Shown here one piece after another: positions 1 through 19,326 of a stretch of DNA of 64,000 nt (the stretch's first letter is position 1; the number at the start of each line of letters is the position of its first letter). Under the pieces are notes generated by a model. The model made no database searches. It worked only from the letters and a program-made list of their open reading frames with translations, and was not told where the DNA came from. Both the position numbers and the translations under genes were made by a program. Source of the DNA: Edaphochlamys debaryana (lineage: Eukaryota; Chlorophyta; Chlorophyceae; Chlamydomonadales); NCBI GenBank assembly GCA_016858145.1, contig JAEHOE010000138.1, forward strand, positions 1 through 64,000, written 5' to 3'.

Positions 1-2875
1 CCCTGGTGCCGGCGCCGACCCAGCGGGGCGCGCAGCGGCCCCGCCAAGAGCGCGACCTGGAGGAGTGTCTGCTGGAGCTCTACGGAATGCTCAAACTGCT
101 GCCGGGCTTGAGTCCCTCGCATGCGGCGGCGCTGGCGGAGCTGCTCTCCGAGGAGCCCGCGGCCGCGGCGGCGCTCATCAAGCTTCACGCGGCGGCGCTG
201 CGGCCGAGCGGGGGAGATGGAGCGGGCGCCGTCGACGTCGCGTGGGTCCCTCGTGACGGAGGAGTGGCGTCGTCGTCTCATCTCGACTGTCGCCGCCATG
301 CTGTCCAAAGCCACTCCGCTGCCGCCCTCCCCTCCCGCGCTGTCCGTGCTGCGCTTCGTGCGGGCCATGCTGCGCGCCCAGCCCTTCCACGCCCTCGGCC
401 GTCAGCTGGCGGCGGCGGCGGCCGCTTTCGGCGCGGGCAGGAGCAGCGGCGGCAGCAGCGGCGGCGGGATGGTCTCCGCCGAGGCTTCCTTGGCTAGCAA
501 AATCCTCTGCGGCAGCAGCGCCACTGTTCACACAGTGTGCACGCTGCTGGGCCTCCTTTGCTGCCGCGAAGTGGCGCCTGGGCTTACGGTCGAGGCCGCA
601 GCGGAGCGGGCGGCGTGCGTGGAGGAATTTGCGCGGGGCCTGGCGGAGAGCGGCTTCCTGGAGCACTCGACGCGCCTGACGCTGATGCTGCAGGCCAGAT
701 ATCCTCAAGAGCTGCAGAAGGAAAGCAAACTCTTTTACATTCAGACCTTGTGGCGTGCCCAGGAGCGCGCGAGCGGCTCTGCACCCCTCATGTGGGCGCC
801 GCCCAGCCCGGGGATGGTGCTTCGGGCGCCGCCGCTCGCAGCGTCAGCCCCGCCGCCGCCGCCACCTGCGCTCGGCGCTCAGCGGCCGTTGCGTGCAGAC
901 GCGGTGCGGGTGTACGGGGTGGGGGACGCTGCGGGTGGCCGACCGGGGGACCTCGTACGGCCTGCCTGCGGAGCTGCAACGGCGGGACTCACGCTCTTGG
1001 AGACGGAGGAGGGCGGTGCTCGAGCCCTCGACCCCATTGCCCTCGAGCTGCTGCTCCGTCAGCTGGCCTCCGGCAGCGCCCTGCCGTCGCCCGGGCCCGG
1101 CGCTTCTCTGGAGCTGGCCCTGCGGGTGGGCCGCGCGGCGGTGGGCACTGTGGCAGCGAGCTTGCGCCCAGAGATCCTCAATGTAAGATCTCGGCTGGGC
1201 ACAGAGTTCCGCGACGGTCAGATCCGGCTACCAGGACTGCCGGCGACGCCGCTGAAGGCGAGCACTGTGGAAGCAGTGCGGCTGGCGGCGGGGGCTCTGG
1301 CGTGCGGCCGCCTGCTGCTGCCGCGGCAACGGCCGTCGCCGCGGCTGAGGCTCAGCGGGCCGAAGTGGTGGCGGTTGGCGGTATGGGTTTCGGCCATCAG
1401 CGCACACGAGCCCGAGGACTACCTGCAGCGGGTTGGGGGGCTGGTGGTGGAGCCCCTTCTTGCCGTGTGGCCGGACGGCCGCCTCGGTGGGTCGGGGGCT
1501 GCCGTGGGCTCTCCTACAAGCTTGGCCCGTTCACAGTGAATGAATCTTCTTCCCGGCAGCAGCAGCCACACTGAGGGGAGGTCTTGCACGGACGCGGGGC
1601 ACGGGGCACATGCGGATCGTCGTCAAGGCTCAAACCGCGGCCCTTGGGGGCAGCATTGGTTGGAAACAGTCCTGGGGATGTACTCTTGAAGGCTCAATTA
1701 AAGGCAGCTGTCCTCCTCTTAATCGTTGCCTCTCTCTCTCTCTCCCTGCCCTCCAGACCTGGACGCCCTGCCCCCTGTGGCTCCTCCCGAGGGTGGCGGC
1801 GGCGCTGGCGTGTGGGCTTCTGTCTTCGCTCTGCACCATGTTCAACTGCCCATCTTCCCGCAACCCGCCGGCGCTCTTCGCCGCCTGCGACGAGGCCCGC
1901 CCGGACGGGCCAGGCTTCGCGCTCTTCCTCGCGCCCCTGCTGGCGTACGGGGACACCGGGTCATGCCAGCTGGCCCTGGTGACTCTGGGCATGATGACAG
2001 CAAGGGGCACGGGCACTGGGCTGTTTGCCCACATGGGAGGGAGTGAGGGAGACGCGGAGCAGCGCCGCTCGGACACGGGCCCCTACAGGCGGGCCTCCGA
2101 GGGTTTCTTTCGAGCGGCCTCGGAGGCCATGTGCCGCTGCCGAGGCCTGGCCGGGGCCGATGCGGCGACGGCGGCGTGGGGCTCGGGCGGTGCAGCAGCC
2201 GCCGGCCCTGCCCCGTCGGCAGCCGCTGGGCAGCCCGCCGCCACGGGGGCTGGCAACAGCGCCGCCGCTGCCGGCTCTGGAGCCGCCGCGGAGGCGCCGC
2301 CGCCGCACCTGCTGCAGTTCAAGCAGATGTACGACTTCGCACAGGCATGGCGGCAAGAGGTGTCTGCGCCCGGCCCCCCCGCCGGCGCGGGCAGCGCGCT
2401 GGCCACCGTCACCGCCTTCGCAGCCGCCTTCAGAGCGACCTCCGCTGCCCCCATTGGTTCGAACTCCTCCTCCACTGCCTCCGCCGAGGAAGTGCGACGG
2501 GGGGAATCGGGACGCGGCGTCGGCCTGGGCCTTGGGGCGCGGCCTGGAAACGCCGCCGCCAAGGGCGCTGACGCCACGGCGGAGGGTGCTGGCAGCGCGG
2601 CCGCCACCGCCGCCGGCGCTGCCTCTGTCCAGGCCGGCGCTGGGCGTTCCGCCGCAAGCTCCGCCGGCGCCGCCGCTTCGCCTTCGGCGGAGGGTTCTGG
2701 CAGCGCTGCCGCCACCGCCTCGCCCTCCGCCTCCCCCGCCGCCGCCGACCCTGCCGCCGCGGCGGCGCCTCCAGAGCGCTGGGGCTGGTTCCGGGCGCTG
2801 CGGTGGCTCGCAGCTGGCGGCCTGACGACTGCCGCTGGCATGCTGGGAGGCAAGCGGGGCTCTGGGCAGGGATAG
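1..2875 (+). pseudogene. Copy 1 of tandem unknown gene family (5' cut by window, frameshifted)
   Basis: This is the first of three long paralogues in the array; I do not recognise the family. The start codon lies left of the window. Exon 1 runs to 1486 and exon 2 from 1757 to the stop at 2873-2875, with a GT-AG intron at the same place as in copies 2 and 3 (codon split CTC G|AC). Homology to copy 2 is continuous (LSVLRFVRAMLRAQPFHALG, LLRQLASGSALP, HLLQF), but the frame changes: one extra base near 248, mutually compensating small indels between about 810 and 990, and one extra G near 1791 just after the exon 2 start. It is therefore probably a decaying copy; homopolymer sequencing errors are the alternative. 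The C-terminal half of exon 2 is Ala/Gly/Ser-rich. Its C-terminal type (SGRG-VGLGLG, AAKGA) is shared with the fragment at 7740-8390 and not with copy 2. Confidence 0.7.
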
Positions 2876-3946
2876 GCCGTTGGTGCCGGTACGTGCGACC
2901 GACCGGGGGGTGCCAGGGCGGCAAGGGACAGCACGACATGGGGTTTGGCGTTTGGGGACATGCATAGCTTCAATCAATAGGCGACTTGTCCATAGTCAGA
3001 CGGGTGAAGGGTGGTTGGGAGCATGGTGTTGGCAAGGCACACACAGCTTTCCTTGTCATCGGCGTTAGGGCCACGTTGTCATTGCCAGAGGATAACATGA
3101 TAAAGCGTTGAAGGCAAGGGCTGGCAGGCGGCTTCAAGTCCGTGTGGCCGGCCTTTGCAGACCGTCACGCGGTGTTGCTCGCTGTCCAGCATTGGTCTGT
3201 AGGGCTGTACGTAAGCGGAGTATCTGATATGCTGTTATGCTCGCGAGGGCAGGCAGAACCGCCACCTAGACACGGGTAGACCTGGAGACGCAGGGATACA
3301 CCTTGGCGGCACCTTTCGTACTAAGCGCTGAGCGGCCGGTCCTGGCCGTGTATGCAAGGCAGGGCGAGCTAGGGGAACGAAGGCAGGGCCAAGCCCGTAG
3401 CTATTGCAGGATAATGTGCAGTGGGTTAGGGTTGGATGTTGCTGCTTATGGCATGATGAGGGCTTCCCAGTCACATGTATCGTTCGATGCGAAGAGCTGG
3501 TGGGGACGGGCGGGGGTTGCGGGGACGGCACGCTGGGGGGCGGGGCATGCACGGATGCAAGCGGGCGATACGTTCAACAGGCCTTGCACAGCTGAAGCTA
3601 CGCGAAAGGACACTCACAACCCCTGCTCACAACAACCAAGAGCTCTTGCCCTATCAAAGCGACGCCAGCACAACGCTGTTGCCTGCGTGACGCTGCTGAA
3701 AGACGCTTGAAAGCTGGGCGCGGCAAGCGCTGTGCCGCGCTTTCTGCGTTGTAGCGCTGCCGCCAGCCGCTTTCGACACGCCTGCAACCTTACATGGCTG
3801 TAGCAAGGTGGGGGCACTCCGGGAGGCATTTCAACTCAGGGCTTTTTGAATCCCCCGGCCGCAACTTCGCCCCCCTCTCGCGCTGTCTCCCGTTCCCGCA
3901 GGCGCTTTTGAAGCCCGGAGCTCTGCGTCTGCTTGGAGCCCCCGCG
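2876..3946 (+). other. Intergenic region and promoter of copy 2
   Basis: No convincing gene is present. The part from about 3235 onward is homologous to 15911-16568 upstream of copy 3, so the duplicated unit included its promoter. The region just before the ATG at 3947 contains a pyrimidine-rich CCCGCAG acceptor-like site (about 3895-3901) that is also present before copy 3, suggesting a 5'UTR intron. Confidence 0.5.
3541..3575 (+). promoter_or_regulatory. 35-bp block identical in the upstream regions of copies 2 and 3
   Basis: A 35-base stretch starting CGGGGCATGC and ending ATACGTTC is identical at 3541-3575 and 16202-16236, about 370-400 bp before the start codons, while the surrounding upstream sequence is only partly conserved. 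A retained regulatory element is plausible, but no known motif is recognised. Confidence 0.35.
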
Positions 3947-6900
3947 ATGCCGCCAAAGAGCCGCGGGCGAGGCGCGGGCGGAGCCGGGGGGAGCGCGTCG
4001 GGCTCTGCCGCGAGCTCCGGTGCCGCGGCTCCCTCGGCGGCGGCGGCTGCTTCGCTGCTGCCCGCTGGGCTGCGGACCGCTTTCCAGGAGCTGCCGCGCT
4101 GTGCGGACACCCAGGTGCCGGCGCCCGCGAAACGCGCGCCGTGTCTTGGCGGTCGCCCGAGCCCCAGCCCAAAGCGGGAGCTGTACACTCTATTGGTGCG
4201 GATATGTGATATGCTCGACGAAATACCTCTCATCAGCGCTCCACACGCGGCCGCATTTGCAGAGCTGCTCTCCCAGGAGCCCGCGGCCGTGGCGGCGCTG
4301 CTGCGGCTTTACGCAGCGGCGCTGCGGCCGTCCCGGGATGATGGAGCCTGCGCTATCGACGTCCCTTGGAGCCTGGTGACGGAGGACTGGCGGCGCCTCG
4401 TCATGTCCGTCCCCCTGACCCTGTACAAGATCGCGCCGCTGCCGCCCTCCCCTCCCGCGCTGTCCGTGCTGCGCTTCGTGCGGGCCATGCTGCGCGCCCA
4501 GCCCTTCCACGCCCTCGGCCGTCAGCTGGCGGCGGCGGCGGCCGCTTTCGGCGCGGGCAGGAGCAGCGGCGGCAGCAGCGGCGGCGGCGGGGCTGGCTCC
4601 AGCAGCGGCGGCGGGGCCGGCTCCCGCAGCGGCGGCGGGGCTGGCACCAGCAGCGGCGGTGAGGCTGTCCGCAGCAGCGGCAGCGGCGGCGCCAGGGGTG
4701 GCTCAAGCAGCAGCGGCGGCGGCGGGGCTGGCGGCTGCAGCGGCCACGGAGCTGGCACCAGCAGCGGCGGTGGCGACAGTGGCAGTGGCGGCGGCGGGGC
4801 TAGCTCTGGCAAGGCGTTCTGGGCCAACACACTGCTTCACCGGGGCTTAGCCATCGTCAACGCATTGAACTATGCGCTGGGCCTGGAGGTGGTCGCGTTG
4901 CTTCCCACTGAGGCTGCTGCGGAGCGGGCGGCGTGCGTGGAGGAATTTGCGCGGGGCCTGGCGGAGAGCGGCTTCCTGGAGCACGCGACGCGCCTGACGC
5001 TGATGCTGCAGGCCAGACATCCTCAAGAGCTGCAGAAGGAAGGCAAGCTCCTCTACCTTCTGGCCCTGTGGCAAGCCCTGGAGCGTGCGAGTGGCCCCGC
5101 CCGCCGCATCTGGGCGCCGCCCAACCCCGGAAACGCCTCCACCGCCGCTAGCATTGTCAGCCCCGCCGTCGCCGCCCACTTGCGCTCAGCGCTCGGCGGC
5201 CGCTGCGTGCAGACGGCGGTGCTGGTGTACGGCGTGGGGGCGCTGCGGGTGGCCGACCGGGGGCCCTCGTACGGCCTGCCGGCAGAGCTGCAGACGGCGG
5301 GGCTTGCGCTGATGACGAAGGATTCGATAGGCCTTCGCCGTCTCGACCCCGTCGCCCTCGAGCTGCTGCTCCGTCAGCTGGCCTCCGGCAGCGCCCTGCC
5401 GCCGCCGGGGCCCGGCGCTTCCCTGGAGCTGGCCCTGCGGGTGGGCCGGGCGGCGGTGGGGACTGTGAGATCGCGGCTGGGCACAGAGTTCCGCGACGGT
5501 CCGATCCGGCTACCAGAGCTGCCGGCGACGCCGCTGAAGGCGAGCACTCTGGAAGCAGTGCGGCTGGCGGCGGGGGCTCTATCGTGCGGCCGCCTGCTGC
5601 TGCCGCGGCAACGGCCATCGCCGCGGCTGGAGGCTCAGCGGGCGGAGTGGTGGCGGCTGGCGGTGGGGTCGGCGATCTTCGGCCATAGTGCGCCCGAAAG
5701 CTTCCTGCGGCAGCTGTTGGGGCTGGTGGCGGAGCCCCTTCTTGCCGTGTGGCCGGACGGCCGCCTCGGTGAGATGGGACGGGGATATGGGTCCCATGAG
5801 CTTAGGAGCGGTCTGGTTCAGTCTGGGGCAATGGCTTCTTTTCGCTGGACCCTTCGTTGCGAGGCCTGTCTGTGCAGGGGCACATGGCCCGAGTCCCATG
5901 GGCACTGCGAACACCTTCCAGCCACTCACTCGAACCCTTGCTCCGCCGCATTCCCTCCAGACCTGGACGCGCTGCCACGCGCTGCACCTCCCGAGGTCGC
6001 GGCGGCGCTGGCGGGCGGGCTGATGCCCGTGCTGTCCCACCTGCTCTCCAACAAGTCTGCCGCCGCCGCCCCGCCGGCGCTCTTCGCCGCCTGCGAGCTG
6101 CCCCGCCTGGGCGGTTCCAGCTTTGCGCTCTTCCTCACGCCCCTGCTGGCGTACGGGGACCCGTGCCTCTGCAAGGAGCTGCTGAACATGCTTGCCAAGA
6201 TGAGCCTGAGGACAGCGGGAGGGGCTGGAGGACCGCTCCTGTCTCTGCTGCTGGGCGGACTGGGCCCGGCTGGGGCCTCGGGGGCCACAGGCTCAGCCGC
6301 GGGGCGCGACCACAGCGACGGCTCCGGGCCCTACATGCACGCGTCCGAGGCCTTCTTCCGTGACGGCGCAGCGGCCATCCGCCGCTGCCGGGGTCTGGCG
6401 GGGGTGGGTGTGGCGCCGGGGGCGGGCGGCTCGGGCGGCGCTGCTTCCGCCGGCGCCGTTGCCTCGGGCGCCGCTGGGCAGCCCGCCGCCGCCAAGGGGA
6501 CTGGCAGGGGCGCTGCCGCTGCCGGCGGCGTCGCTGCGGAGGCGCCTCCGCCGCACCTGCTGCAGTTTCAAGCTATGTACGATTACGGCGCTGAGTCGTG
6601 GGGCGTGTTATCGGGGTACGAGTTTTCCGACGGCGCTGACGACGTACCGTCTGCCGCCTCTTCCGCTTCCACCGCCGCCGCTACGTCCTCAGCCGCCACC
6701 TCCTCCTGCGTCTCCACCGCATGTGACCTGGAGGAAGAGCTCGCGCGCCTCATCACTGACGTCATGTCTGACGGCGGGGAGCTGAGCGGGGAGGCGGCCG
6801 CTGCCACTCAGGCGCCTGCGGGAGGCGAGGGCGGCGCTGCTTCCCGCGGGCCGGCCTCTTCGGCCGCCGCTGCTCAACCCGGACTGGAGCCTGCGGCGGA

Positions 6901-7528
6901 GCCCGCTGCTGACGGCCCCGCGGCGGCGGCCCAGCTGGGGCACGCATGCGGGGTCGTGTTGGGGGACTTGGTCAAAGCGGCGCTTGGCGGCTCACCCGGC
7001 GGCGGCGATGGGGTTCCGTCAGCGGCGGAGGCGACGACGACGGGCCTCGCCTCCGCCGCAGCCGCCGCTGGGCTGCCAGCGGCGGGCACGGGAGCCGCCA
7101 TGGATGCTCTGATGGACCTTGGCCCGCGGCTCGCAGAGGCGATCTACGGTGACGGAGACTCGAGCGAGGACGAGGCAGCGCCGGCGGGTGGGTCGCCGGC
7201 GGGTGGGTCCGCGGGCAGCTCAGCCGCCGCAGCAGCAACCGCAGCGGCAGCCGCGGGCAGCCCGGGCGCCGCTGCCGCACCTATCAACGCGGCCGCGGGC
7301 TGCCCGGTCACCGCCGCTGCACCTATCGCCGCCGCCGGGGGTAGCTCCGCCTCCGCTGCGCTCTCTGCGGCGGGCGATGCTGCCAACACCGCCGCCACCT
7401 CCACCGCTTCTGCCCTCGCCGCTGCGTCCGACTCCTCCCTCGCCTCTGAACCCATCCCCGCCGCCGCCCCGGCGGCCGCCGATGCCGCCGATGCCGCCAT
7501 GGTGGTCGACCCGGTGCGTCGGGGCTAG
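3947..7528 (+). CDS. Copy 2 of tandem unknown gene family (intact), 1129 aa
   Basis: This is the intact member of the family; function unknown. Exons are 3947-5768 and 5961-7528 (3390 nt, phase-consistent). ATG 3947 is chosen because it opens MPPKSRGRG, matching MPPKSRRRG in copy 3; the frame is open upstream to 3794. The protein has a basic, Gly/Ser-rich N-terminus, an Ala/Leu-rich helical part (about residues 75-200: HAAAFAELLSQEPAAVAALL, LSVLRFVRAML), a Gly/Ser linker of about 90 residues, a conserved core (EFARGLAESGFLEHATRLTL; VLVYGVGALRVADRG; WPDGRL), then exon 2 with APPEVAAAL, FLTPLLAYGD, ASEAFFRDGAAAIRRCRGL and HLLQFQAMYDYG. The tail is Ala-rich with acidic patches. No signal peptide or membrane segment is evident. 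The 192-nt intron is in frame and stop-free, so retention would insert 64 residues. A TGTAA signal follows at 7655. Confidence 0.75.
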   Translation: MPPKSRGRGAGGAGGSASGSAASSGAAAPSAAAAASLLPAGLRTAFQELPRCADTQVPAPAKRAPCLGGRPSPSPKRELYTLLVRICDMLDEIPLISAPHAAAFAELLSQEPAAVAALLRLYAAALRPSRDDGACAIDVPWSLVTEDWRRLVMSVPLTLYKIAPLPPSPPALSVLRFVRAMLRAQPFHALGRQLAAAAAAFGAGRSSGGSSGGGGAGSSSGGGAGSRSGGGAGTSSGGEAVRSSGSGGARGGSSSSGGGGAGGCSGHGAGTSSGGGDSGSGGGGASSGKAFWANTLLHRGLAIVNALNYALGLEVVALLPTEAAAERAACVEEFARGLAESGFLEHATRLTLMLQARHPQELQKEGKLLYLLALWQALERASGPARRIWAPPNPGNASTAASIVSPAVAAHLRSALGGRCVQTAVLVYGVGALRVADRGPSYGLPAELQTAGLALMTKDSIGLRRLDPVALELLLRQLASGSALPPPGPGASLELALRVGRAAVGTVRSRLGTEFRDGPIRLPELPATPLKASTLEAVRLAAGALSCGRLLLPRQRPSPRLEAQRAEWWRLAVGSAIFGHSAPESFLRQLLGLVAEPLLAVWPDGRLGEMGRGYGSHELRSGLVQSGAMASFRWTLRCEACLCRGTWPESHGHCEHLPATHSNPCSAAFPPDLDALPRAAPPEVAAALAGGLMPVLSHLLSNKSAAAAPPALFAACELPRLGGSSFALFLTPLLAYGDPCLCKELLNMLAKMSLRTAGGAGGPLLSLLLGGLGPAGASGATGSAAGRDHSDGSGPYMHASEAFFRDGAAAIRRCRGLAGVGVAPGAGGSGGAASAGAVASGAAGQPAAAKGTGRGAAAAGGVAAEAPPPHLLQFQAMYDYGAESWGVLSGYEFSDGADDVPSAASSASTAAATSSAATSSCVSTACDLEEELARLITDVMSDGGELSGEAAAATQAPAGGEGGAASRGPASSAAAAQPGLEPAAEPAADGPAAAAQLGHACGVVLGDLVKAALGGSPGGGDGVPSAAEATTTGLASAAAAAGLPAAGTGAAMDALMDLGPRLAEAIYGDGDSSEDEAAPAGGSPAGGSAGSSAAAAATAAAAAGSPGAAAAPINAAAGCPVTAAAPIAAAGGSSASAALSAAGDAANTAATSTASALAAASDSSLASEPIPAAAPAAADAADAAMVVDPVRRG

Positions 7529-7654
7529 CCTACTTGGCAGCTCGGGGGCACTCAGCTGGGGAGCTGGTCGGCGGACAGCAGGGCTCGGGGCAGGCAGGGC
7601 GGCTTGGAGGACAGCAGGGCGCACGGGGCCACCCGGGGCGTGAGGCAGGGTCCC

Positions 7655-7659
7655 TGTAA
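7655..7659 (+). promoter_or_regulatory. Polyadenylation signal TGTAA for copy 2
   Basis: TGTAA lies 127 nt after the copy 2 stop codon. TGTAA is the usual poly(A) signal in volvocine nuclear genes. Confidence 0.5.
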
Positions 7660-7739
7660 GTCACAGGGCCACCTCCGTCTGGGGCCTCGGTCAGGTGCCC
7701 AGCGTGGAGCGTGCAGTGCTCCAAGCGCGGGCCCCGGGG

Positions 7740-8390
7740 GCTGGTCCCAGCGCTGACACCGGGCCCTACAAGCGGGCGTCCGAGCGAGGCCTTCTTCCGA
7801 GAGGGCGCAGGGGCAGAGGCGATCCGCCGCTGCAGAGGCTTGGCGGAGGCCGCTGACGTGCCGGCCGGCGGCTGGGGCAGCGCTGCTGCCGCCGGCCCCG
7901 CATCCTCGGCCTGCGCTCACCAGCCCCGAGGCAGCCGCGGCGCCGCCACCATACCTACCTGCTGCAGTTCGGGGACTTGCATGGGTTCGCGGTGGGCATG
8001 TGGGGGGTGGCGTCGGGGTTCGGCACCGCTGCTGCTTCCACCTCTGCCTCCACTGCATCCACCGCCGGGATCATCCAGGAGCTCGGTCGAAGGCTGGGCA
8101 CAGCGTTCGAAGACCTGCGCGAGGATGTGCAACCGGTGGAATCGGGACGCGGCGCTGGCGTCGGCGTCGGCATCGGCCTCAGGCCGCGGCCCTGGAGCGC
8201 TGCCGCCAAGGGCGCCGCCGCCGCTTCTTCGCCTCCCGTGGAGGGTGCGGGCAGCGCCATGCCCGTCGCCGCCGCTGCACCCACGAGTGGGGGTTCTGCT
8301 GGCAGCGGCTCCGCCGCGGCTGCGCCCACAACTGACGGTGCTGGCAGCGCCGCCGACGCCGCATCCTCAGTGAGGTGGTACGGAGCAGGA
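7740..8390 (+). pseudogene. C-terminal fragment of the same gene family
   Basis: Only the second half of exon 2 is present. It begins at the GPY-(K/R)RASE region (a CGAG duplication breaks the frame near 7783), continues with EAFFREGAG and RRCRGLAE, changes frame again before a degenerate HLLQF region near 7960-7975, then reads FAVGMWGVASGFG and a tail resembling copy 1 (PVESGRGAG, AAAKGAAA). No exon 1, start or intron is found, so it is a truncated duplicate. It lies between copy 2 and the retrotransposon. Confidence 0.65.
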
Positions 8391-8649
8391 GGATGCAGGG
8401 TCATAGCTCATAGCTCGCACAACAACGTGGGCGGGCGGGGTACGGTCTGTCTTCTCACCCTGCCTGACGGTGCTAGATTCCAGATAGGGTGCCGAAGGTC
8501 TGGTTAGTCTGGTGGGGAGGGAGGGGTTTTGCGACTGCACGCCGGGGGACGTGCCCGGGTTGACACTCATGAGCCCATCAGAACTTGCCCATCCACCAGG
8601 GGTCGGTCCATCTAACTAATGGGTATGGTCATGTGCGTGGGTCAGCCGT
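8391..8649. other. Short spacer before retrotransposon
   Basis: No gene or repeat is seen. The 3' end supplies the target site GAAGT. Confidence 0.4.
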
Positions 8650-8654
8650 GAAGT
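8650..8654. repeat. Target-site duplication (left), GAAGT
   Basis: GAAGT directly abuts the LTR at 8655 and is repeated directly after the other LTR at 15906-15910. Five bp is the normal duplication size for Ty3/gypsy integrases. Confidence 0.9.
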
Positions 8655-9083
8655 TGTTGTACCAGCCTAGTGCTTGAGCTGTTAGAACGCTAGTAAGAGC
8701 TAAGTGAGAACCCAGAGTCGTGTCCGTTTTGACGTGGCATTGAGCGAATGCCGGTTAGCGGCCAGAGGCCGGGTCTAAGTAGCTTCCGGAGTAACGGCAG
8801 GGGATTCCGAGGCGCACAGCTGGCGCGTGCCAGCTGTAGCTCTCGTAACTGCAGTCAGACGCTAACCGGTGACAGCACCACAGCTTCCAGGCGCTGTGGT
8901 GAAAGCACAGTGCAGCAGGGTGCTTAACCACGGGGCAGGTCCCAAGCAGTGCAGAGCGACGGAGGGTGTTGCGGACCCCCGCACAGGTGTCGCAGAAACA
9001 GTCAGACCAGAGTTCGGCCGCACTTGGCCGCACGACCGTAGACGTTCGCAGAATACGTCCGTTTCTACGGTCGGCGCACAACA
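8655..9083 (-). repeat. LTR (3' LTR of the element)
   Basis: 429 bp, begins TGTTGT and ends ACAACA as a short inverted repeat. It matches 15477-15905 base for base as far as I can read. Because the element is on the - strand this is its 3' LTR. Confidence 0.95.
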
Positions 9084-9087
9084 AGTG

Positions 9088-9097
9088 TTCCCCCTCT
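9088..9097 (-). other. Polypurine tract
   Basis: On the element strand this reads AGAGGGGGAA, four bases before the 3' LTR. This is the expected plus-strand primer for LTR retrotransposons. Confidence 0.8.
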
Positions 9098-9129
9098 AGG
9101 AGGCTGCGTCCTCGTAGCCTCACTGGCAG

Positions 9130-12100
9130 TTAACCAGCACGGGAAACCTGTCGGGCTTTCCAGCGGGCCCTAGCCTCATCAAGCGCAGGCTTGAGGTCAG
9201 GGGTAAAGTTAGAGGCAGGCTCCCAGGTGTTGTTCTCAGAGGAGTAACCAGCCCACTGCACAAGGTACTCACGTACGGTACGCTTGCGTTTACTTTTACC
9301 ATGCACCAGCCGTTCACGGTAGTCCAGGATACGTTCCACAGTGAACATAGGCTCTCCATCTTCAAGCCATGCGATGGGGCCAGGCTCGGTAGCAGTGACG
9401 TCAGGGGCAGCACGGTAGGGCTTAACCAGGGAGACGTGAAACGTGGGATGAATGCGCATGTGGGAAGGCAGCTCCAACCGCACAGCAGCTTCACCCACCA
9501 TCTCTTTAACACGGAAAGGACCAATGAAGCGCGGCAACAGTTTGCGCGGTCCTGTGGCCAAAGAACGGAGGTTAGTCGTGCTCAGCAAAACCATTTGCCC
9601 AGGCGCAAAGGTCACAGGCCTCTTAGACTTGTTGTAGTAGGCGGCGGCACGTTGTTGAGCAGCCTCGATGCAAGTCCTGGCGTCCTTAATGCGTGTAGCA
9701 AAGTCGGCGATGAACTGTTTAGATGCCGGGACGACAGACTCGATCTCGCGCCACACAGGTAGCGCCGGATTAAAGCCATAATTGAGGTAGAACGGAGAAC
9801 GACCAGTAGAACGGTTAACAGCGTTGTTGATGGCGAACTCTGCAGCGGTGAGGAAAGAATCCCAAGAGGTCTGCGCACGGGAGGCGAAGTTTCTTAGGGT
9901 TTCTCCAAGAACACGATTTACGCGCTCAGTCTGCCCATCCGACTGGGGATGATAAGAGGTCGACAGCTGAACCCGCAGATCACTCAAGCGACAGAGCTCT
10001 CGCCAGAAATGGCTACGCCACAGTGAGTCACGGTCACCAACTACGTTAGCGGGCATACCGTGCAGGCGTACCACGTTGTCCCAGAATAACTGCGCAGCTT
10101 CAGGTGCTGTACATTTAGACGTGGTTGGGGCCAGATGCACCATTTTAGTCAGCCTGTCAACGAAGACAAGTACCGTGTCCCACCCCCTTTCAGTCTTGGG
10201 CAGTGCGCACACGAAGTCCATGGAAACGGACTCCCAAGGCATGCTAGGTATGGGCAAGGGTTGCAGCAGCCCGTGGCCCTTACCAGACAGGGACTTGTTG
10301 AATTGACAGGAGTCGCAGGAAGCGACGTAGCTCTCAACATCACTCGCCATGGAGCTCCACCAGAAATGTGAGCGGACCAGAGCCAGGGTGCGTTTGCCAC
10401 CAGGGTGACCACCCACGGGCCCAGCATGGTAACGAGAGATAATCTGCCGGCGTAATTCAGCATAAGCAGGCACGACAATCAGGGGTCGTTGCCCAGGTTC
10501 GTCAGCAGTGAACCATAAGCCGTTTGCAGACTGGAGCTTACTGGTGTTGGCAGAGATTTTGAACCAGGGGTCCAAAGCATAGGTTTCGCGTATGCGAGCA
10601 ACCAGATCACTCGGAGCAGAGGCCTCAGGCGGCATGCCCGGTGTTGCTTCAGGCAGACCGTCCAGGTCCATAGGCGTAGCAGCATCAGGGCTGTCGCCAG
10701 GAGCCTGTGGGTCCAAACTCAGGCCAACGTCAGGGACAGGGGACGCAGGGTCAGGCAGCATAGCAGCGTCCTGCGCTGAGGGAGAGGCACTCCCCGCAGG
10801 CGCAGAACCCACCTGTTGTGGTGACACGCCACCAGGGCGGCGCGCTGCCTGCCGTCGAGTTAGCACCTGAGCAAAGGCCACACCCATCAGCGTGATGCAA
10901 GCCAGCCGGGCTACCTTAAGCAACGGGTGCCGACTCAGCGCATCAGCCACGTTGAGTGACCCTTTCAGGTACTCCCAATGGAAGTTAAACCGTGCCAAAT
11001 ATTCCATCCAGCGGGCTTGGCGGCGGTTGAGGGTCGGCACACCCTGCAGATAGGTGTTGGGAGCGTGATCAGTTTTCACAACAAATTCAGCTCCCTCGAC
11101 GTAACAGCGCCACTCGCGGAGCGCAATCAACACGGCTAAGAGCTCCTGCTCGCCAGTCGTGTAGTTGCGTTCGGCGGGGCTGAATTTCTTACTGGTGAAG
11201 GCAATCGGACGCCCACCTTGTAAAATCACAGCACCCATACCGTGGTTGGACGCGTCCGTCACAATTTCGATGCGGTAGGGCAGCTGTGGGTCTGGAAACG
11301 CCAACACCACATCCTCTGCAATGGCGCGCTTGATAGCCTCAAAGGCGGCTTGACACTCAGGGGTCCAGGAAGCCGGAGAGGTGAAAGCGCCTGCACGCGT
11401 GAGGTTGGTTAGAGGTGCAGCCAGGTTGCTGTAGCGCTCTACAAATTTGCGAAAATAATTGGTCAGGCCCAAAAATGAACGCAGCTCTTGCAGGTTGGTT
11501 GGCGTGGGCCAGTCACGTACGGCAGAAACCTTCTTGGGGTCCATACGTACACCATCAGCAGAGACGATGTGGCCCAGATACTCCACTTGCGGCTCAGCCC
11601 AATGACACTTTGACGCTTTCGCGTAAAGCTTTTGGTCACGCATGATCTGCAGCACTTGACGTAAATGAACCAGGTGTTCTTCAAGCGTCTTGCTGTAGAC
11701 CAGACCGTCACTGAGGGCAGGAGGCCGAAGGGAAATTAAAAGAGGGGAGGGCGTTGTGTGTGAGGCGCTGATCAGGCGCAGCAAGGGACGGGGATCAAGC
11801 CGGCTTGCGTTCTACAGCACACACGCACTCACTCCAGGTAGAGGGTCATAAAGCCCGCAGAAATGCAGGGAGAAAATATCTCTCCGAGCGCTGACTGGAA
11901 CGTGCTAGGGGCGTTGACTAGCCCAAAGGGTAGCACGGTGTACTCGAAATGCCCAAACGGGGTGCTGAAAGCTGTTTTAGGGATATCGGATTCGTGGATC
12001 CGGATCTGGTTATACCCCTGCAGGGAGGAAAGGAACCGGTTGCAGGCACCAGCCGTGCACAGCTGCAAACCAGCCCAAATCCCACCTGCTGGAGATCCAG

Positions 12101-13989
12101 AGAGCTAAAGTATTTAGCGCCACGCAGCTTGTCGAGCAGATCATCGACGCGCGGCAGTGGGTACCGGTTCTTGACGGTTTTGGCGTTGAGGCCTACACAC
12201 GTCAGAGGAACCCGGGAAGGGGGTCAGCGCTCTAAGCTAGTACGCATGTGTTTGACCTAAACCTAAACCTAAACGCGGGCCGAGCTAGAGGGGCGCTGAC
12301 TGACAGAGGTAAACTAAAGGAGGGCAAAACGAGGAGGCGGGCAGGCAACAGATAACCCCACCGCACACCTCGATAGTCAATACACATTCTGGATAAGAGA
12401 GAAGCACGTGAGGCCGTTAGCAGGGGCAACACGTAGCAAGCTGCACCGCTAAAGGAGCATTCACACCTGAGAGCACCGTCCTTCTTGCCAACAAAGAGGA
12501 TGGGGGCGCTCCAGGGTGACGTCGACGGACGAATCATGCCCTTAGCCAGAAGGTCGGTGACTTGACGCTTGACTTCTTCTTGCTCCAGCGGACTGAGCCG
12601 GTATTGACGGCGGGCAATTGGTCGAGTACCAGGTTCCAGCTCAATTGTATGCGACACAGGGCGCCAGGGAGGGGTGTCAATAATCTCAGCAAACACCTCT
12701 TGGTATTCATCAAGCACAGCCTGAACGGCAGGCTCTGGGGAGGTGGCAACAGAGGCACCAGCGTTAACAGGTACACGAGGGCATAACAGAATGCCATGCG
12801 CACCCTTGCGGATGGCCCTAGTAGCCTCCTTTCTGCCTATGCGTTGCGGCTCGGCACCAGCACGCATAGCAGCCAGGGCTAGGTTCAGACTAGGTGCATC
12901 AGCATCAGGCTCAGATGCATCGGCTTCCTCCCCCCCGGCAGAGAGGTCAGGCAGGAAGGGGACGCGGCACCAAGCAGTGCCCTTGCGCAGGCGCAAGCAG
13001 CCGTCCCCCATGCATACCTCGGCGAAGAGAGAACGCATGGTCGATGCACCCAGGACGTAGGAGACAGGGTCCAGCAGTCCTGAGAGCACGAAGGGGCGAA
13101 CGGTTAGGTGCAGGGACCCAAGGGCCAGGCGCAGCGATACACGGCCCATGATGGCTTGAGTGCCACCATCAGCCAACGTAACCTTTTGCTGGTACGAAGG
13201 ATCGATGTGCAGGCCCAGACGCTTCGCCAAAGCGTAAGAAATGAAGTCATGGCTAGCGCCAGTGTCGACCAAAGCGGTGGTCAGCACACGGCCAGCACGG
13301 ACCTCGATGACAGGAAGCCCAGAGTCTGTGGAAGCGGCATTGGCTCGCAAACAGGACACATGGGGCTTAGCAGTACAGGGCGCAGCAACACCATCAGCAG
13401 GGGCTGCGTACCAGACCTCAGCAGAGGACGTGATGGCAGGCAGGCGCGCAACACGACCTTCTAGGGTAATCCCATTGAACAGCTGAGACCCCGCCTTAAA
13501 ACGCATAACCCGCTCCATACCGTTGAAGAGTGAAGCGGACTTGGCTTGAGCGGCGATGTAGGAGGGCACCAGGACGGCGAGGCAAGTCAAAGGACGAGCA
13601 GCACGCCACGAGTTGAAGACACGAAGACCCTCCTTCAGCTGACCAAGTGAGATAGGGGTAAACCAGACGGTGTGACCACCAAGACGCGCAGAGGCCAAAG
13701 AAGCAGAACGAGGCCACTCTACGTTACACGTAGCAGAGAAGCCAGCACGCATAGCAGACAAGTCATACGAAAACTTGCGCTTAATTTTGCGCTCCACTTC
13801 CTTCAGCACAGAACCAGTCACCGCACGACACGCACGCCACACCATGCCAGATGCTTTAGTGTCAGAAGCGTCATGATTGTCAGAAGTCAGTGCGGAATGC
13901 GCTAGGTGAACGGCACCGCATTTGGCCACAGGCGGCCTATCCTTGCACCCAGGTGGGCTAACCCCTACAGCACACGCCTGGGCAGGCCC
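9130..13989 (-). CDS. pol: Retrotransposon pol: protease, RT, RNase H, integrase, chromodomain (intron-containing)
   Basis: Predicted exons on the - strand: 13989-12467, 12388-12369, 12192-12086, 12017-11833, 11710-9130 (stop TAA 9132-9130). With gag the joined frame is 5802 nt, exactly 1934 codons including the internal TGA. Domains in order: aspartic protease with [15 protein letters not shown] with [35 protein letters not shown] and the catalytic YLDD (the second D codon is completed across intron 4); RNase H with VTDAS, EQELLA, KTDHAP and ADALSRH; integrase zinc finger ([13 protein letters not shown]), the D-D-E core ([21 protein letters not shown]) and a GPF-type end; chromodomain ([13 protein letters not shown] to [17 protein letters not shown]). 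Pol is in the gag frame after one TGA, so it would need readthrough or a different RNA. No ATG is evident at its start. Confidence 0.85.
11711..11832 (-). other. Intron 4, splitting the YLDD catalytic motif (122 nt)
   Basis: Donor GTGAGTGCG after CTG GA, acceptor CTGCCCTCAG before T GAC GGT. Splicing rebuilds LYLDDGLVYSK; without it the frame reaches a stop (TAG) in the intron before DGLVYS. Confidence 0.85.
12018..12085 (-). other. Intron 3 in the RT domain (68 nt)
   Basis: Donor GTGGGATT, acceptor CCTCCCTGCAG. Splicing joins FSSLDLQQ to [11 protein letters not shown], the standard RT motif B region. Confidence 0.8.
12193..12368 (-). other. Intron 2 in the RT domain (176 nt)
   Basis: Donor GTGTGCGG, acceptor CGTGTGTAG. 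Splicing joins DYRG to [19 protein letters not shown]. Between introns 1 and 2 lies a 20-nt exon (12388-12369). The intron contains in-frame stops and three copies of TTTAGG. Confidence 0.8.
12389..12466 (-). other. Intron 1 in the RT domain (78 nt)
   Basis: Donor GTGTGA follows CTCAG; acceptor TTATCCAG. Removal joins GALR to MCIDYRG, the normal RT sequence; retention inserts unrelated residues. Confidence 0.8.
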
Positions 13990-15375
13990 TCAGTTGTCGG
14001 GCTTGCTGGGGCACTCAGCGACCCGGTGGTCGGAGGCACCGCAGTTGAGGCACTGGCCCGAGCCCTTGCGCTCGTAGTAGGTGCGGCGGTTGCAGTTGAA
14101 CGCGCGCATCTGCTCGGCCATGTCCTCGCCCCGGGCGCGGGCGTTCCGGATCAGGAAGGCCACGCGCTGGGGGCCCACCGGGGGCTGCGAGGGACCAGCG
14201 CCCTCGTCGCCACCGGACTGGGGCTTGCCGTTGCCGTTCTTGCCGTTGCCGTGGGACTTGTGGCCGCCGGGGCTCTTGTGCTTGTTGCCCTTGTTGCCCG
14301 GCGAGACCTTGCCCTTGAACGCCGCAGCGGCCTTGATGGCGGAGCCGTCGGCACCCCGGGCCTTCTTGGAGGGGGCGTCGCCGTCGCCGTCGTCGGAGTC
14401 GGGCTTCTTGGGCAGCTGCGGACGGGAGGGGCGGCAGGCACGAACGGAAGCAAGACGGGCACGGGAGTCACGGATTGCGTCAGCTCGAGCTTTCATTTTG
14501 CGCTCTTCAGAGAGGGCGTGAGAGCAGAGCTCGGCATATGACGTGAACGGGTTGCCCTCCCGGGAGGAGGCGCAGGATGCGGCAAGCTCAGTTTCAGCAG
14601 AGAGGCCGGCTTTGAACCAGAAGCACTTCTCCTCATCGGTCATGTTGGGAATGGCAGTGCACAGGGCGTTAAACCGGGATTGGTAAGCGGCTACAGTGTC
14701 ACGGTTAGCAATCCAGGCATAGGACTGCCGTGCCAGCTCAGTGCGGGCCTCTTCTTGCCGTGTCATCAGTTGGGGGGCAAACCGCGCACGAACGGCATCG
14801 AGCATATCATCAGAGGTATATGACTCGTTGCCACGGGCTGCGGTCCAATCGTCAAGCCAGGTCTTGGCGATCCCCTTAAGTGCAGAGGACAGGAACAGGC
14901 GCCGCCCAGGGTCCGTTTCCCCCACGGTAACGCAGCTGAAATATTCAGTTACGTCCCTAATAAAGGCACGCACGCGGGCGGGGACACGGGGCCCCTTCAG
15001 GCCGTGCAGGTCCAGCTCAGGCGCTGGCAGCGAAGCCCGAATGACCCGACCCACCGGCGTGGAGACCTTGCAGGCCGCACCAGAGGCAGCGCCACCCTCG
15101 GGGTCGTGCTGGTTCTCTGGGGCGCGTTCAGGGATTGGGCCACGGAAGGCAGCGTTAGCAGAAACAGAAGCGGCAGCAGGAGCCGCAGGCGCAGCAGGCG
15201 CGACAGGGGCCTGGGCAGGCGCAGGCACCGCAGCAGGAGCGGGCTGGCCATACGGCATGCCGAACGGAGGGCCCCAGGGCCACGGCACAGGCATGTAACC
15301 GGGCGCCATAGCCCCAGCGGGCATTTGCGGCATGAAACCGGCCCAGGGCCCAGGCGCGACCGGAGCGCCAGGCAT
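13990..15375 (-). CDS. gag: Retrotransposon gag with CCHC zinc knuckle
   Basis: 461 residues from ATG 15375 to TGA 13990. The N-terminus is Pro/Ala/Met-rich (PGAPVAPGPWAG), the middle resembles the Ty3/gypsy retrotransposon Gag fold (YFSCVTVGETDPGRRLFLSS, KTWLDDW, YQSRFNALCTAIP), a basic Gly/Lys-rich linker follows, and the C-terminus has one CX2CX4HX4C knuckle (CLNCGASDHRVAEC) for RNA packaging. The next downstream frame (pol) is the same frame, separated only by the TGA. Confidence 0.88.
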   Translation of the reverse strand: MPGAPVAPGPWAGFMPQMPAGAMAPGYMPVPWPWGPPFGMPYGQPAPAAVPAPAQAPVAPAAPAAPAAASVSANAAFRGPIPERAPENQHDPEGGAASGAACKVSTPVGRVIRASLPAPELDLHGLKGPRVPARVRAFIRDVTEYFSCVTVGETDPGRRLFLSSALKGIAKTWLDDWTAARGNESYTSDDMLDAVRARFAPQLMTRQEEARTELARQSYAWIANRDTVAAYQSRFNALCTAIPNMTDEEKCFWFKAGLSAETELAASCASSREGNPFTSYAELCSHALSEERKMKARADAIRDSRARLASVRACRPSRPQLPKKPDSDDGDGDAPSKKARGADGSAIKAAAAFKGKVSPGNKGNKHKSPGGHKSHGNGKNGNGKPQSGGDEGAGPSQPPVGPQRVAFLIRNARARGEDMAEQMRAFNCNRRTYYERKGSGQCLNCGASDHRVAECPSKPDN

Positions 15376-15462
15376 AGCAGGGAGCGCAACAGGGTGCGGA
15401 AGCGCGTTTGGTTGCAGCAGTGCAGGGTTATGGGCTGGCGAAGCAGGAGCGAGGGGCCGGTT

Positions 15463-15474
15463 GCCCCGCTACCA
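15463..15474 (-). other. Primer binding site, initiator-Met tRNA-like
   Basis: Two bases inside the 5' LTR the element reads TGGTAGCGGGGC. It begins with TGG (complement of CCA) and would pair with a tRNA ending GCCCCGCUACCA, as expected for a eukaryotic initiator methionine tRNA with an AGCGGGG acceptor stem. The tRNA assignment is inferred. Confidence 0.7.
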
Positions 15475-15476
15475 CT

Positions 15477-15905
15477 TGTTGTACCAGCCTAGTGCTTGAG
15501 CTGTTAGAACGCTAGTAAGAGCTAAGTGAGAACCCAGAGTCGTGTCCGTTTTGACGTGGCATTGAGCGAATGCCGGTTAGCGGCCAGAGGCCGGGTCTAA
15601 GTAGCTTCCGGAGTAACGGCAGGGGATTCCGAGGCGCACAGCTGGCGCGTGCCAGCTGTAGCTCTCGTAACTGCAGTCAGACGCTAACCGGTGACAGCAC
15701 CACAGCTTCCAGGCGCTGTGGTGAAAGCACAGTGCAGCAGGGTGCTTAACCACGGGGCAGGTCCCAAGCAGTGCAGAGCGACGGAGGGTGTTGCGGACCC
15801 CCGCACAGGTGTCGCAGAAACAGTCAGACCAGAGTTCGGCCGCACTTGGCCGCACGACCGTAGACGTTCGCAGAATACGTCCGTTTCTACGGTCGGCGCA
15901 CAACA
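15477..15905 (-). repeat. LTR (5' LTR of the element)
   Basis: 429 bp, same sequence and orientation as 8655-9083. It presumably holds the element promoter, which would fire away from copy 3. Confidence 0.95.
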
Positions 15906-15910
15906 GAAGT
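15906..15910. repeat. Target-site duplication (right), GAAGT
   Basis: Direct repeat of 8650-8654 immediately outside the 5' LTR. Confidence 0.9.
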
Positions 15911-16568
15911 GAAGTAGGTCAGCCCTGTGGGTCAGCCCTGTGGGTCAAGTGGCATCCCGACACGAGTACACCTGGAGACGCAAAGATGTGCCTTTGCGGC
16001 ACCTTTCGTAATGATGGGCCGTAGCTGTTATGTTATGCGCAAGGCAGGGCAAGCCAGGGGGATTGAAGGCCGGGCGAAGCCCTTAGCCCTCGCAGGATGA
16101 TGTGCAGTGGGTGAGGGCTAGGTGTGGCTGCTCACGGAATGAGCTGAGAGGAAGAGCTGGTGGGGACGGGCGGGGGTTTGCGAGCACGGCCCGATGGGCG
16201 GCGGGGCATGCACGGATGCAAGCGGGCGATACGTTCGACGGGCAAGCTTGCAAGCTTGCAAAGCTTTACTGCAGAGAGCTACATAAACGAACACGCAACA
16301 ACCTGACAGCGCTTGCCCTATCAACGCAAAGCCGGTGACGCTGAACGCCGTGCCGCGCTTTCCGTGCCGCAGCGCTGCTGCCAGCCACTCTCGACACGTC
16401 GTTTGCCCTGCTATGGCCATAGCAAGGTACGTGTAGAAGGCTGGCGAGGGCTCTGGGGGGGCAAATCCCGCCGGTGCCGCGTCAACTTCGCCCCCCTCTT
16501 CACGACGTCTCCCGTTCCCACAGGCGCTGTTGAAGCCCGGAGCTCTGCAGTCTTTGACCGCCCCAGCG
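15911..16568 (+). promoter_or_regulatory. Upstream region of copy 3, homologous to that of copy 2
   Basis: Homologous to roughly 3240-3946, including the 35-bp identical block at 16202-16236 and the CCCACAG acceptor-like site just before GCGCTGTTGAAGCCCGG. The retrotransposon inserted about 290 bp upstream of the conserved block. Confidence 0.5.
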
Positions 16569-19326
16569 ATGCCGCCCAAGAGCCGCCGGCGCGGCGAGGG
16601 CGGAGGCGGGGGAAGCGCCTCGAGCTCTGCCGCGAGCTCCGGCGCTGCGGCTCCCTCGGCTGCTGCTGCTGCTTCGCTGCTGCCCGCTGGGCTGCGGACC
16701 GCTTTCCAGGAGCTGCCGCGCTGTGCGGATGCCCTGGTGCCGGCGCCCGCGAAAGGCGCGCCGTGTCTTGGCGGTCGCCCGAGCCCCAGCCAAGAAGACG
16801 ACCTGCAAAAAAGCCTGACAGAGCTATATAACACGATTGATGGACTACCTAACAGGAGTGCACATGCGGCGGCGCTGGCGGAGTTGCTCTCCCAGGAGCC
16901 CGCGGCCGCGGCGGGGCTGCGGCCGGGCCCACAGGACGGTGTTTGGTGCCTGGGCAAACCCTTGCCAGTGTGGCGGATGAGAGCTAACTCCGTAGCCTGC
17001 ACGGTTCTCTTCAATGCCCTGGCTCTGCCGCCCTCCCCTCCCGCGCTGTCCGTGCTGCGCTTTGTGCGGGCCATGCTGCGCGCCCAGCCCTTCCACGCCC
17101 TCGGCCGTCAGCTGGCGGCGGCGGCAGCGGCCCTCGAGGCGGGCAGGAGCGTAGGCGGCGGGGGTGGTGACGGCCGCGGCGGGGGTGGTGGCGGCGGCGG
17201 CGGGTCTGGCGCGAGCAGCGGCAGCGGCGGGGCCGGACTCAGCGGCAGTGGCCGCGGCGGGGCTGGCCCGGCGCCGGCTCTGGCTGACCGGGCCAACGCG
17301 ATCCTTTGCGGTGGCATTTACATGTCCATTTCTGTGAGCCGTCTGCTTAAGCAGGCTATTGCTGTTCAGGAGCTAGGACCGGGCCTTCCCAGCAGCAGCA
17401 CTGAAGGCGGCGGAAGGGCGGCGGAGGGGGCGGCGTGCGTTAAGGAATTTGCGCGGGCCCTGGCGGAGAGCGGCTTCCTGGAGCACGCGATGCGCCTGAC
17501 GCTGATCCTGCAGACCTTAAACCTCAAAGAGACCAAGCTTGACGGCAAGCTGCCCAGCATTCTCGATGTGTGGGAGTTGGTGGGCGGGCGAGCGGCTCTG
17601 CACCCCTCATCTGGGCGCCGCCCAGCCCTGGAGACGCCGCCTCCACCGCAGCCGGCCGCATCAGCCCCGCCGCCGCCGCCCACCTGCGCTCGGCGCTCAG
17701 CGGCCGCTGCGTGCAGACGGCGGTGCTGGTGTACGGGGTGGGGACGCTGCGGGTGGCCGACCGGGGGCCCTCGTACGGCCTGCCGGCGGAGCTGCAGACC
17801 GCGGGGCTCACCCTCTTGGAGACGGAGGAGGGCGGTGCTCGCCGCCTCAAGCCCGTCGCCCTCGAGCTGCTGCTCCGTCAGCTGGCCTCCGGGAGCGCCC
17901 TGCCGCCGCCCGGGCCCGGCGCTTCCCTGGAGCTGGCCCTGCGGGTGGGCCGGGCGGCGGTGGGCACCGCATGGGCGATGGTGCCTAGTAAGACCCTGGA
18001 GGGCTATTACGCGCGACCGCCATCGCTCGTAACGCCGCTGTCTATGAGCATGTCAGCGGCGGTACGGCTGGCGGCGGGGGCTCTGGCGTGCGGCCGCCTG
18101 CTGCTGCCGCGGCAACGGCCGTCGCCGCGGCTGGAGGCTCAGCGGGTGGAGTGGTGGCGGCTGGCGAGGTGGGCTGCAATCTTTGCCGTGGCTGAGCCGG
18201 AGGGCTTGCTACGGCAACTGATGGAGCTGGTGGCAGAGCCCCTCCTGGCCGTGTGGCCGGACGGCCGCCTCGGTGAGTGCGCGGGAGGGGCCACTGGCAG
18301 AGGGCGTGGGTGCGCTGTACCTTGTATGCTAACTGGGGGCTTCAAGTTCAGGCTTCATGCACGCAGCACCTGTAGCACGCACATGTAGCTTCTGGCGCCC
18401 TCAATGTGTTGCCTTCCTGCATAGCAGACACTGCCCTTTTGAATAGTGCCGGAGGCGAAGTGGACAGCGCCTGACGCCAATCCTTCCCTTCCCCAGACCT
18501 GGACGCCCTGCCGCCGGTAGCCCCTCCCGAGGTGGCGGCGGCGCTGGCGGGCCGGCTGCTGTCCGCGCTGTTGGGCCTCATTGCACCCGCATCCTCCCCA
18601 GCCCCGCCGGCGCTCTTCGCCGTCTGCGAGAGGGCCCGCCCGGGCGGCCCCGGATTCGCGCTCATCCTGGTTCCCCTGCTGGCGTACGGGGACGGTGGCG
18701 ATTGCGAGAAACTGCTCACAGCGCTTGCCAAGATGAGCCTGAGGACAGCGGGAGGGCAGGGAGGGCCGGGGGCGGCAGGGGCCTCGGGGGCCGCAGGCTC
18801 GGCCCCGGGGCCCAGCCCCAGCGCTGAAACGGGGCCCTACAGGCGGGCCTCGGAGGCCTTCTTCCGTGAGGGCGCAGCGGCCATTCGGCGCTGCCGAGGC
18901 CTGGCCGGGGCTGATGGAGCGCCGGCGGCCGGCTTGGGTGGCGCTCCTTCCGCTGGCTCTGCCCCCGCGGCCGCCGCTGGGCACCCCGCCGCCACAGGGG
19001 TTGGCCAGAGCTCCGCCGCTGCCGGCTCCGGAGCCGCCGCGCAGCCGCCTCCGCCGCACCTGCTGCAGTTCAGGCGGATGTACGACATTGCAGTGCGGTC
19101 GTGGGGCGAGGCGTCGGGGCTCGGCTCTGTCGGTTGCTGCGCTGCCGGCACCACCGCCGCCACCGCTGCCAATGCCGCCGCCGCCGCCGTCATTGCCGCC
19201 GCTGACTCCGCCGACGCCGCGACGGAGCGCCGGTTGTGTTTCGGGGTGTTCTCGGGGCGGGGAGGGGCGCGTGGCAGGAGCTCTGGGGGCGGGCGGGGTG
19301 GCACACGAGGTTCGGGGCAGGGGTAG
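16569..19326 (+). pseudogene. Copy 3 of tandem unknown gene family (1-nt frameshift)
   Basis: ATG 16569 opens MPPKSRRRG. Exons are 16569-18272 and 18497-19326, with the same intron position as the other copies. The frame from the ATG stays homologous to copy 2 until LPSILDVW near 17572. Between there and the ERASGSAP-equivalent about 17 nt later one base is missing relative to copy 1, and the rest of exon 1 (SAPLIWAPPSPG, VLVYGVGTLRVADRG, LLAVWPDGRL) plus exon 2 (APPEVAAALAG, FALILVPLLAYGD, ASEAFFREGAAAIRRCRGL, HLLQFRRMYD) continues in the new frame. All else is well preserved, so it is either a very young pseudogene or an intact gene with one sequencing error. The C-terminus is shorter than in copy 2. 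Confidence 0.65.

Follow-up and report, generated by a model that had tools for sequence, protein, structure and literature searches.

Passage through RNA is normally expected to erase introns, which are for this reason a classical mark separating RNA-copied sequences from the original DNA. A locus in the chlorophyte Edaphochlamys debaryana raises the question of how a retrotransposon can keep several introns in its own reverse transcriptase (RT) gene and still move. The stretch analysed here (the window) comprises 64,000 nucleotides, positions 1 to 64,000 of contig JAEHOE010000138.1 in assembly GCA_016858145.1, and contains, at 8655-15905 on the minus strand, a chromodomain-bearing Ty3/gypsy long terminal repeat (LTR) retrotransposon whose RT domain is interrupted four times. 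We consider it likely that this element represents an LTR lineage with spliceosomal introns in RT, whose transcripts occur in two forms, and which requires both readthrough of a stop codon and splicing in order to make RT. The feature is real and unusual, and constitutes a new variant of the intron-bearing LTR elements, to be compared with Ogre.

An earlier interpretation of the window (the sequence-only reading) had described four GT...AG intervals of 78, 176, 68 and 122 nt whose removal restores the RT motifs. All four are confirmed, and the exons that flank them abut the motifs of uninterrupted relatives. The pol region is thus divided as follows:

12467..13989, minus strand: pol exon 1, comprising an N-terminal domain, the aspartic protease (Pfam gag-asp_proteas, E 4.3e-11) and the first part of RT
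12389..12466, minus strand: intron 1 (i1), 78 nt, length divisible by three, no pol-frame stop
12369..12388, minus strand: exon 2, encoding MCIDYRG
12193..12368, minus strand: intron 2 (i2), 176 nt, with pol-frame stops at 12234, 12204 and 12195
12086..12192, minus strand: exon 3, recognized by tblastn with uninterrupted relatives
12018..12085, minus strand: intron 3 (i3), 68 nt; the related family B (see below) has no intron at that position
11833..12017, minus strand: exon 4, FGLVNAP...YLD (Pfam RVT_1, E 1.2e-09 for 11850-12017)
11711..11832, minus strand: intron 4 (i4), 122 nt, lying within the codon of the first catalytic Asp
9130..11710, minus strand: exon 5, encoding the end of RT, RNase H, integrase, an SH3-like domain and the chromodomain (Pfam)

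When uninterrupted relatives are aligned to the window by tblastn, the blocks start or end at or near the intron borders: in the block of relative P0005 the end of exon 3 falls exactly at i3, while other blocks overrun the borders by some residues. Given their GT-AG ends, their precise positions and their absence from homologues without damage to the frame, the four interruptions look like spliceosomal introns. If i4 is left unspliced the product reads Y-L-E-stop at the first catalytic Asp, because GTGAGT comes directly after the second base of that codon, and the sequence at this border, CTGGAGTGAGT, is identical in the aligned rows of the window's family (family A) and of two related families, B and C.

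We searched the host assembly (141.9 Mb, 502 contigs) for further copies. The 756-base RT region gave 34 matches, 16 of which cover the query wholly or for the greater part, with 98-100% identity. Exon 4 was found in 17 family-A places at 96-100% identity, plus two partial repeats within the copy on C244, and the i4 query returned the same 17 places, adjoining exon 4 in every one (3 bases off in the disturbed copy on C404), as did i1 (one match being cut by a contig end); i2 and i3 are present in the 16 rows that were aligned and in C244. On this point the sequence-only reading, which had named relatives lacking the interruptions as evidence that would count against it, is upheld by the genome search, the interruptions being present in the other copies as well. 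The splice dinucleotides are intact in the aligned rows (C244 was excluded for its internal repeat, and one row is partly missing for i1) with two exceptions, an AG to AT change in i3 of C38 and the disturbed start of i4 in C404. A fragment at C52:286940, which matches exon 5 only, at 89%, stands outside these 17-place counts. C404 and the end of C64 have the same flank as the window's element and so represent the same insertion, which reduces the 17 places to 15 distinct loci.

Nine of the 17 rows have perfect target-site duplications (TSDs), and as C404 is the window's own site these amount to eight distinct loci with different 5-bp duplications (ACTTC, TTAGT, GCAAG, ACTAC, GCGGC, TGACG, CAAGT and CAACG); in the remaining eight rows the flank is missing or does not match. 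Eight loci with different perfect TSDs imply that the introns survive retrotransposition. The two LTRs of the window's element are, as had been claimed, identical, over their full length, and are bordered by the 5-bp TSD ACTTC; together with the other copies and their distinct TSDs this supports recent movement with the introns retained. Could the interruptions nevertheless be insertions into, or decay of, a single copy? They do break the frame, but this explanation is scarcely credible, given that they have GT-AG ends, that i1 and i4 are the same in 17 out of 17 places, and that related families differ by whole introns at the same positions.

Several further observations concern these copies. 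The site of the window's element recurs on C404 and at the end of C64, as duplicate contigs or haplotypes in the assembly. Four copies (L039, L040, L041 and L042) have interiors that are mostly 97-99% identical to the window's element and LTRs that are only ~83-85% like its own, a mismatch in sequence that suggests exchange of LTRs between subfamilies. On C244 (L046, 4067-4480) a stretch of ~158 bases that contains i3 and a portion of exon 4 is present in three tandem copies, which is either real or an assembly error, and the copy on C254 (L033) is rearranged, with an inverted i2/exon 3 piece directly past the 5' LTR.

Families B and C carry three and four introns in RT, respectively, compared with four in A. 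Family B, found in five places (C143, two on C172, C28 and C64), is devoid of i3, with exon 3 directly joining exon 4 in all five; its i4 is 97 nt long in each, and the distance across i1 and i2, which were read as sequence in two copies, is equal throughout. Family C has i2, i3 and i4, lacks i1, and bears an extra intron after FGLTNAP, which when used as a query gave six genome matches, all of them C elements (five C copies were anchored, although in two of them the distal exon did not pass the threshold applied, and two were read as sequence). Intron positions i1, i2 and i4 are therefore common to A and B, and i2, i3 and i4 to A and C. Comparing the intron interiors with 300 shuffles, using one copy per family, none scored as high for i2 or i4 between A and B, one for i2 and two for i3 between A and C, and none for i4 between B and C. 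An introner origin, i.e. near-identical introns spread across host genes, was rejected for i1, i4 and the extra C intron, which were queried separately and match element copies only; for i2 and i3 the search was confined to the 756-base query. Branch-point-like motifs were noted by eye in i2 and i4, and no weight is placed on them.

In a tree of the integrase part (22 rows), A, B and the two C rows form one branch (support 100/100), within which A and B group together (98/96). By this tree B would have lost i3 (unless it was gained on two occasions), and i1 would be either a gain in A+B or a loss in C, so that, by parsimony, introns appear to have been gained and lost singly. Synonymous divergence (dS) in the RNase H-integrase exon is 1.33 and 1.51 for A-B, 1.79 for A-C, and 2.24 and 1.68 for B-C, with a ratio of nonsynonymous to synonymous divergence (dN/dS) of 0.12-0.20 among the three families. 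Intron positions held in common across a dS above 1.3, like the co-occurrence of exon 4, i4 and i1 in the copies, amount to more than coincidence. Judged from these rates, the protein is under purifying selection while the introns move with the element to new sites. The lineage preserves a record, made by nature, of how introns come and go in a gene that depends on reverse transcription.

More distant relatives are generally uninterrupted. Out of nine such places in the same genome that were read as DNA, seven (C22, C159, C3, C100, C110, C128 and C163:166k) are open across all intron positions; C4, with a frame change near the position of i1, and C163:228k, with several, are not open, yet contain no long insert. 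The nine best-ranked of the 120 listed protein relatives have 56-62% identity over the aligned part, and all possess YLDD and DYRGLN. No introns in other species were seen among these 120, listed out of 2694 protein matches, but databases of open reading frames (ORFs) favour intronless genes and the Astrephomene relative P0001, being a gene model, may have had its introns taken out beforehand, so that absence of introns outside the clade is not established. A search of viral contigs for relatives found none. An RT interrupted in this way also suggests a reason for ORF-based searches to miss elements of this kind.

Outside the pol exons, the window's element has the following parts:

15906..15910, minus strand: TSD ACTTC, 5' side
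15477..15905, minus strand: 5' LTR, 429 nt, TGTTG...ACAACA, identical to 8655-9083
15465..15474, minus strand: putative primer-binding site, TGGTAGCGGG, directly past the 5' LTR
13993..15468, minus strand: gag open frame (Pfam), 492 amino acids, with a zinc-knuckle-like end, native start missing
13990..13992, minus strand: TGA in frame, separating gag from pol, with GGGCCTGCCCAG after it
9084..9097, minus strand: purine-rich tract, AGAGGGGGAACACT, 5' of the 3' LTR
8655..9083, minus strand: 3' LTR, identical to the 5' LTR over its full length
8650..8654, minus strand: TSD ACTTC, 3' side

The two LTRs, the TSD and the order protease, RT, RNase H, integrase place it in Ty3/gypsy, and the chromodomain that follows integrase (Pfam Chromo, E 1.9e-10, residues 789-835 of the exon-5 piece) places it among the chromoviruses. 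In exon 5, RT_RNaseH, Integrase_H2C2 (zinc-binding), SH3_Tf2-1 and Chromo score above the Pfam cut-offs, rve (the integrase core) just under and the end of RVT_1 below; gag matches Retrotrans_gag slightly below the cut-off (E 4.7e-05) and zf-CCHC weakly. The TGGTAGCGGG bases also stand past the LTR in L063 and L067, with TGGCACGCGG instead in five other rows, and a tRNA scan of the window found none. Across 141 residues, the domain that precedes the protease (13330-13989) shares 40% identity with P0002. In P0077, a distant relative, Pfam reports a Dam methylase match close to the N-terminus, and no such match is present in the window's N-terminal pol piece. As for the surroundings, GC content of the window is 67.2%, the element lies (within 1-19000) between repeated stretches ~4.3 kb and 12.5 kb apart that resemble a tandem host ORF family, and a tandem array with a 26-base unit occupies 27116-27715.

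The window's copy is not complete, since it is missing ~0.7 kb of leader and gag N-terminus that other copies possess. Its gag is only 492 amino acids long for the same reason, the gag frame being 540-547 amino acids in six of the seven other copies examined (the seventh, on C52, is broken at 142). The sequence-only reading had taken the element to be intact, with a Gag-Pol of 1934 codons. The count of codons between the ATG at 15375 and the stop at 9130 is correct, but that ATG is internal, the native gag start being absent, and the frame is not continuous, since it contains the TGA at 13990-13992. This in-frame UGA did not figure in that reading, and neither did the close families with differing intron sets or the uninterrupted RT of distant families.

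The TGA followed by GGGCCTGCCCAG is found in 15 of the 17 A rows (counting C404 apart from the window), while in the other two the anchor had no exact match. The stop codon is TGA in A and in the C3 family, and TAG in B, C and the C22 family; in B, C, C22 and C3 GGN-NNN-GCN-CAG comes next, and pol then lies open in the frame of gag. Altogether, the stop with GGN-NNN-GCN-CAG occurs in five of six gypsy families examined (rows including L047, L050, L073, L075, L076 and L077), and the same five have a junction of the readthrough type, i.e. a single in-frame stop with gag and pol in the same frame; the sixth, C159, has no in-frame stop in the stretch read. From this arrangement it appears that the UGA or UAG past gag is probably bypassed by readthrough, which would set the ratio of Gag to Gag-Pol. 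Since the C22 and C3 families combine this stop with an uninterrupted RT, it probably predates the introns. Alternatively, the stop might be bypassed by a further splice that uses GCNCAG as acceptor and yields a subgenomic Pol mRNA; GCNCAG does follow the stop in all five families having one, but we think this unlikely, as those families keep gag and pol in a single frame and, by eye, no pyrimidine tract precedes the CAG. Selenocysteine decoding of UGA is also unlikely, because UAG stands at this place in B, C and the C22 family. As to a stable RNA stem past the stop, folding relative to shuffles gave z-scores of -2.65 to +0.47 over 50 nt and -1.28 to +0.87 over 60 nt, so that at 50 nt shuffles are beaten only in B (z -2.12) and the C22 family (z -2.65), both of which are weaker at 60 nt, and a stable stem common to the families is not supported. 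Rfam returned two matches on the gag-pol junction, both far below the cut-offs.

How, then, might such an element replicate? Its transcript would exist in an unspliced and a spliced form. The unspliced RNA would be the genome that is packaged and reverse-transcribed, and, because of the stops in i2 and the i4 stop at the catalytic YLDD, it would be unable to encode active RT or the parts downstream, whereas the spliced RNA would serve as mRNA for full Pol. RT production would need readthrough of the gag stop in addition to splicing. Given the YLE-stop, if the element uses its own RT then RT mRNA and genomic RNA would be separate pools, and the low dN/dS supports such use in family A. The sequence-only reading had already proposed unspliced genomes alongside a spliced RT mRNA, and it is borne out on the condition that the element's own RT is used, although the splicing, as in that reading, we infer from the sequence. 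This last point also heads the considerations that weigh against our interpretation. Exon 5, in the part matched, is stop-free in ten of the 17 A places but has stops in the other seven, and the window's copy lacks its leader and gag start. The 15 A loci resemble one another closely and might go back to a small number of sources, and copies with introns would equally be mobilized by an RT that another family provides in trans. Some interiors are not clearly alike: for A-B i1, 196 of the 300 shuffles scored as high, for B-C i2 38 (not significant), and for A-C i4 ten (marginal). Finally, at 50 nt four of the six post-stop stems are no stabler than shuffles, and at 60 nt none is clearly stabler.

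What the introns are doing in the element is a separate matter, and regulation by splicing is unproven. Tentatively, and we regard this as doubtful rather than probable, they may act as a built-in separator, in which the copied genome, with its stop at the catalytic Asp, could never serve as the RNA for RT, intron or splicing signals mark the RNA to be packaged, and readthrough adds the second part of a two-lock control of Pol; if true, such control would have been held while the families diverged almost to synonymous saturation and single introns came and went. One may also consider, with nearly an even chance of being right, that the introns are passive, having come from an intron-rich host and persisting through incomplete splicing and packaging dominated by unspliced RNA. 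This would assign them no regulatory role and is compatible with the two RNA forms proposed above. Host genes of the unicellular species have on average 7.7-9.3 introns in each coding sequence (PMC8226300), and the families differ in i1, i3 and the extra C intron, as drift predicts; on the other hand, i2 and i4 are missing from no A, B or C copy read, and their A-B interiors are alike.

The introns might instead be kept as an escape from silencing aimed at intronless transgenes or retrocopies, by analogy with HUSH, which seems improbable to us. Intron-containing transgenes reportedly mediate efficient expression in Chlamydomonas, to go by the title of a study cited in PMC8226300. Human HUSH represses long intronless transgenes and is counteracted by insertion of an intron (PMC8770142), but gypsy places with uninterrupted RT persist in the same Edaphochlamys genome. 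Copying of family A in trans by another family's RT, with the introns as harmless passengers, would fit the presence of uninterrupted relatives in the genome, the identical LTRs of a window copy devoid of leader and gag start, and the damaged exon 5 copies; the dN/dS among A, B and C argues against it, and we hold it to be distinctly unlikely.

Within the titles and abstract openings of the literature, a scope that leaves aside the curated transposable-element supplement of PMC8226300, Repbase and subscription papers, we found no RT with several introns in an algal LTR element; the curated notes for this species in that supplement may hold a prior record. Among named systems the Chlamyvir clade of chromoviruses is close, and membership in it is a candidate assignment. 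The gag-pol junction appears to resemble that of murine leukaemia virus, with one in-frame stop followed by GG, but no pseudoknot is shown here and stability does not exceed that of shuffles in most sequences. In Tca2 of Candida, a UGA of this type was not read through in yeast by its flanks alone (PMC2194720). Penelope-like elements are also retroelements that disperse intron-bearing sequence (PMC3846280), but are not LTR elements with integrase, and an antisense template was floated there as one possibility. Ogre, a plant Ty3/gypsy element of the Tat lineage, likewise is an LTR retrotransposon with an intron in pol and offers a precedent for partial splicing (PMC6317226). Its intron, however, lies between the protease and RT ORFs, whereas here the frame is open from protease into RT and three to four introns lie inside RT; moreover, Ogre is classed there as non-chromovirus (PMC6317226), and the chromodomain sets the present element apart from the Tat lineage. 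BARE1, EVADE and CRR are LTR elements with both spliced and unspliced RNA, BARE having separate RNA pools for translation and replication (PMC3735527) and EVADE being spliced as well (PMC12786077). In BARE and EVADE the product of splicing is an RNA for Gag alone, and CRR loses rt when it is spliced, while in the Edaphochlamys lineage splicing would be needed for RT. The retention of several introns in RT through transposition makes testable how a retrotransposon sets its unspliced genomes apart from mRNA.

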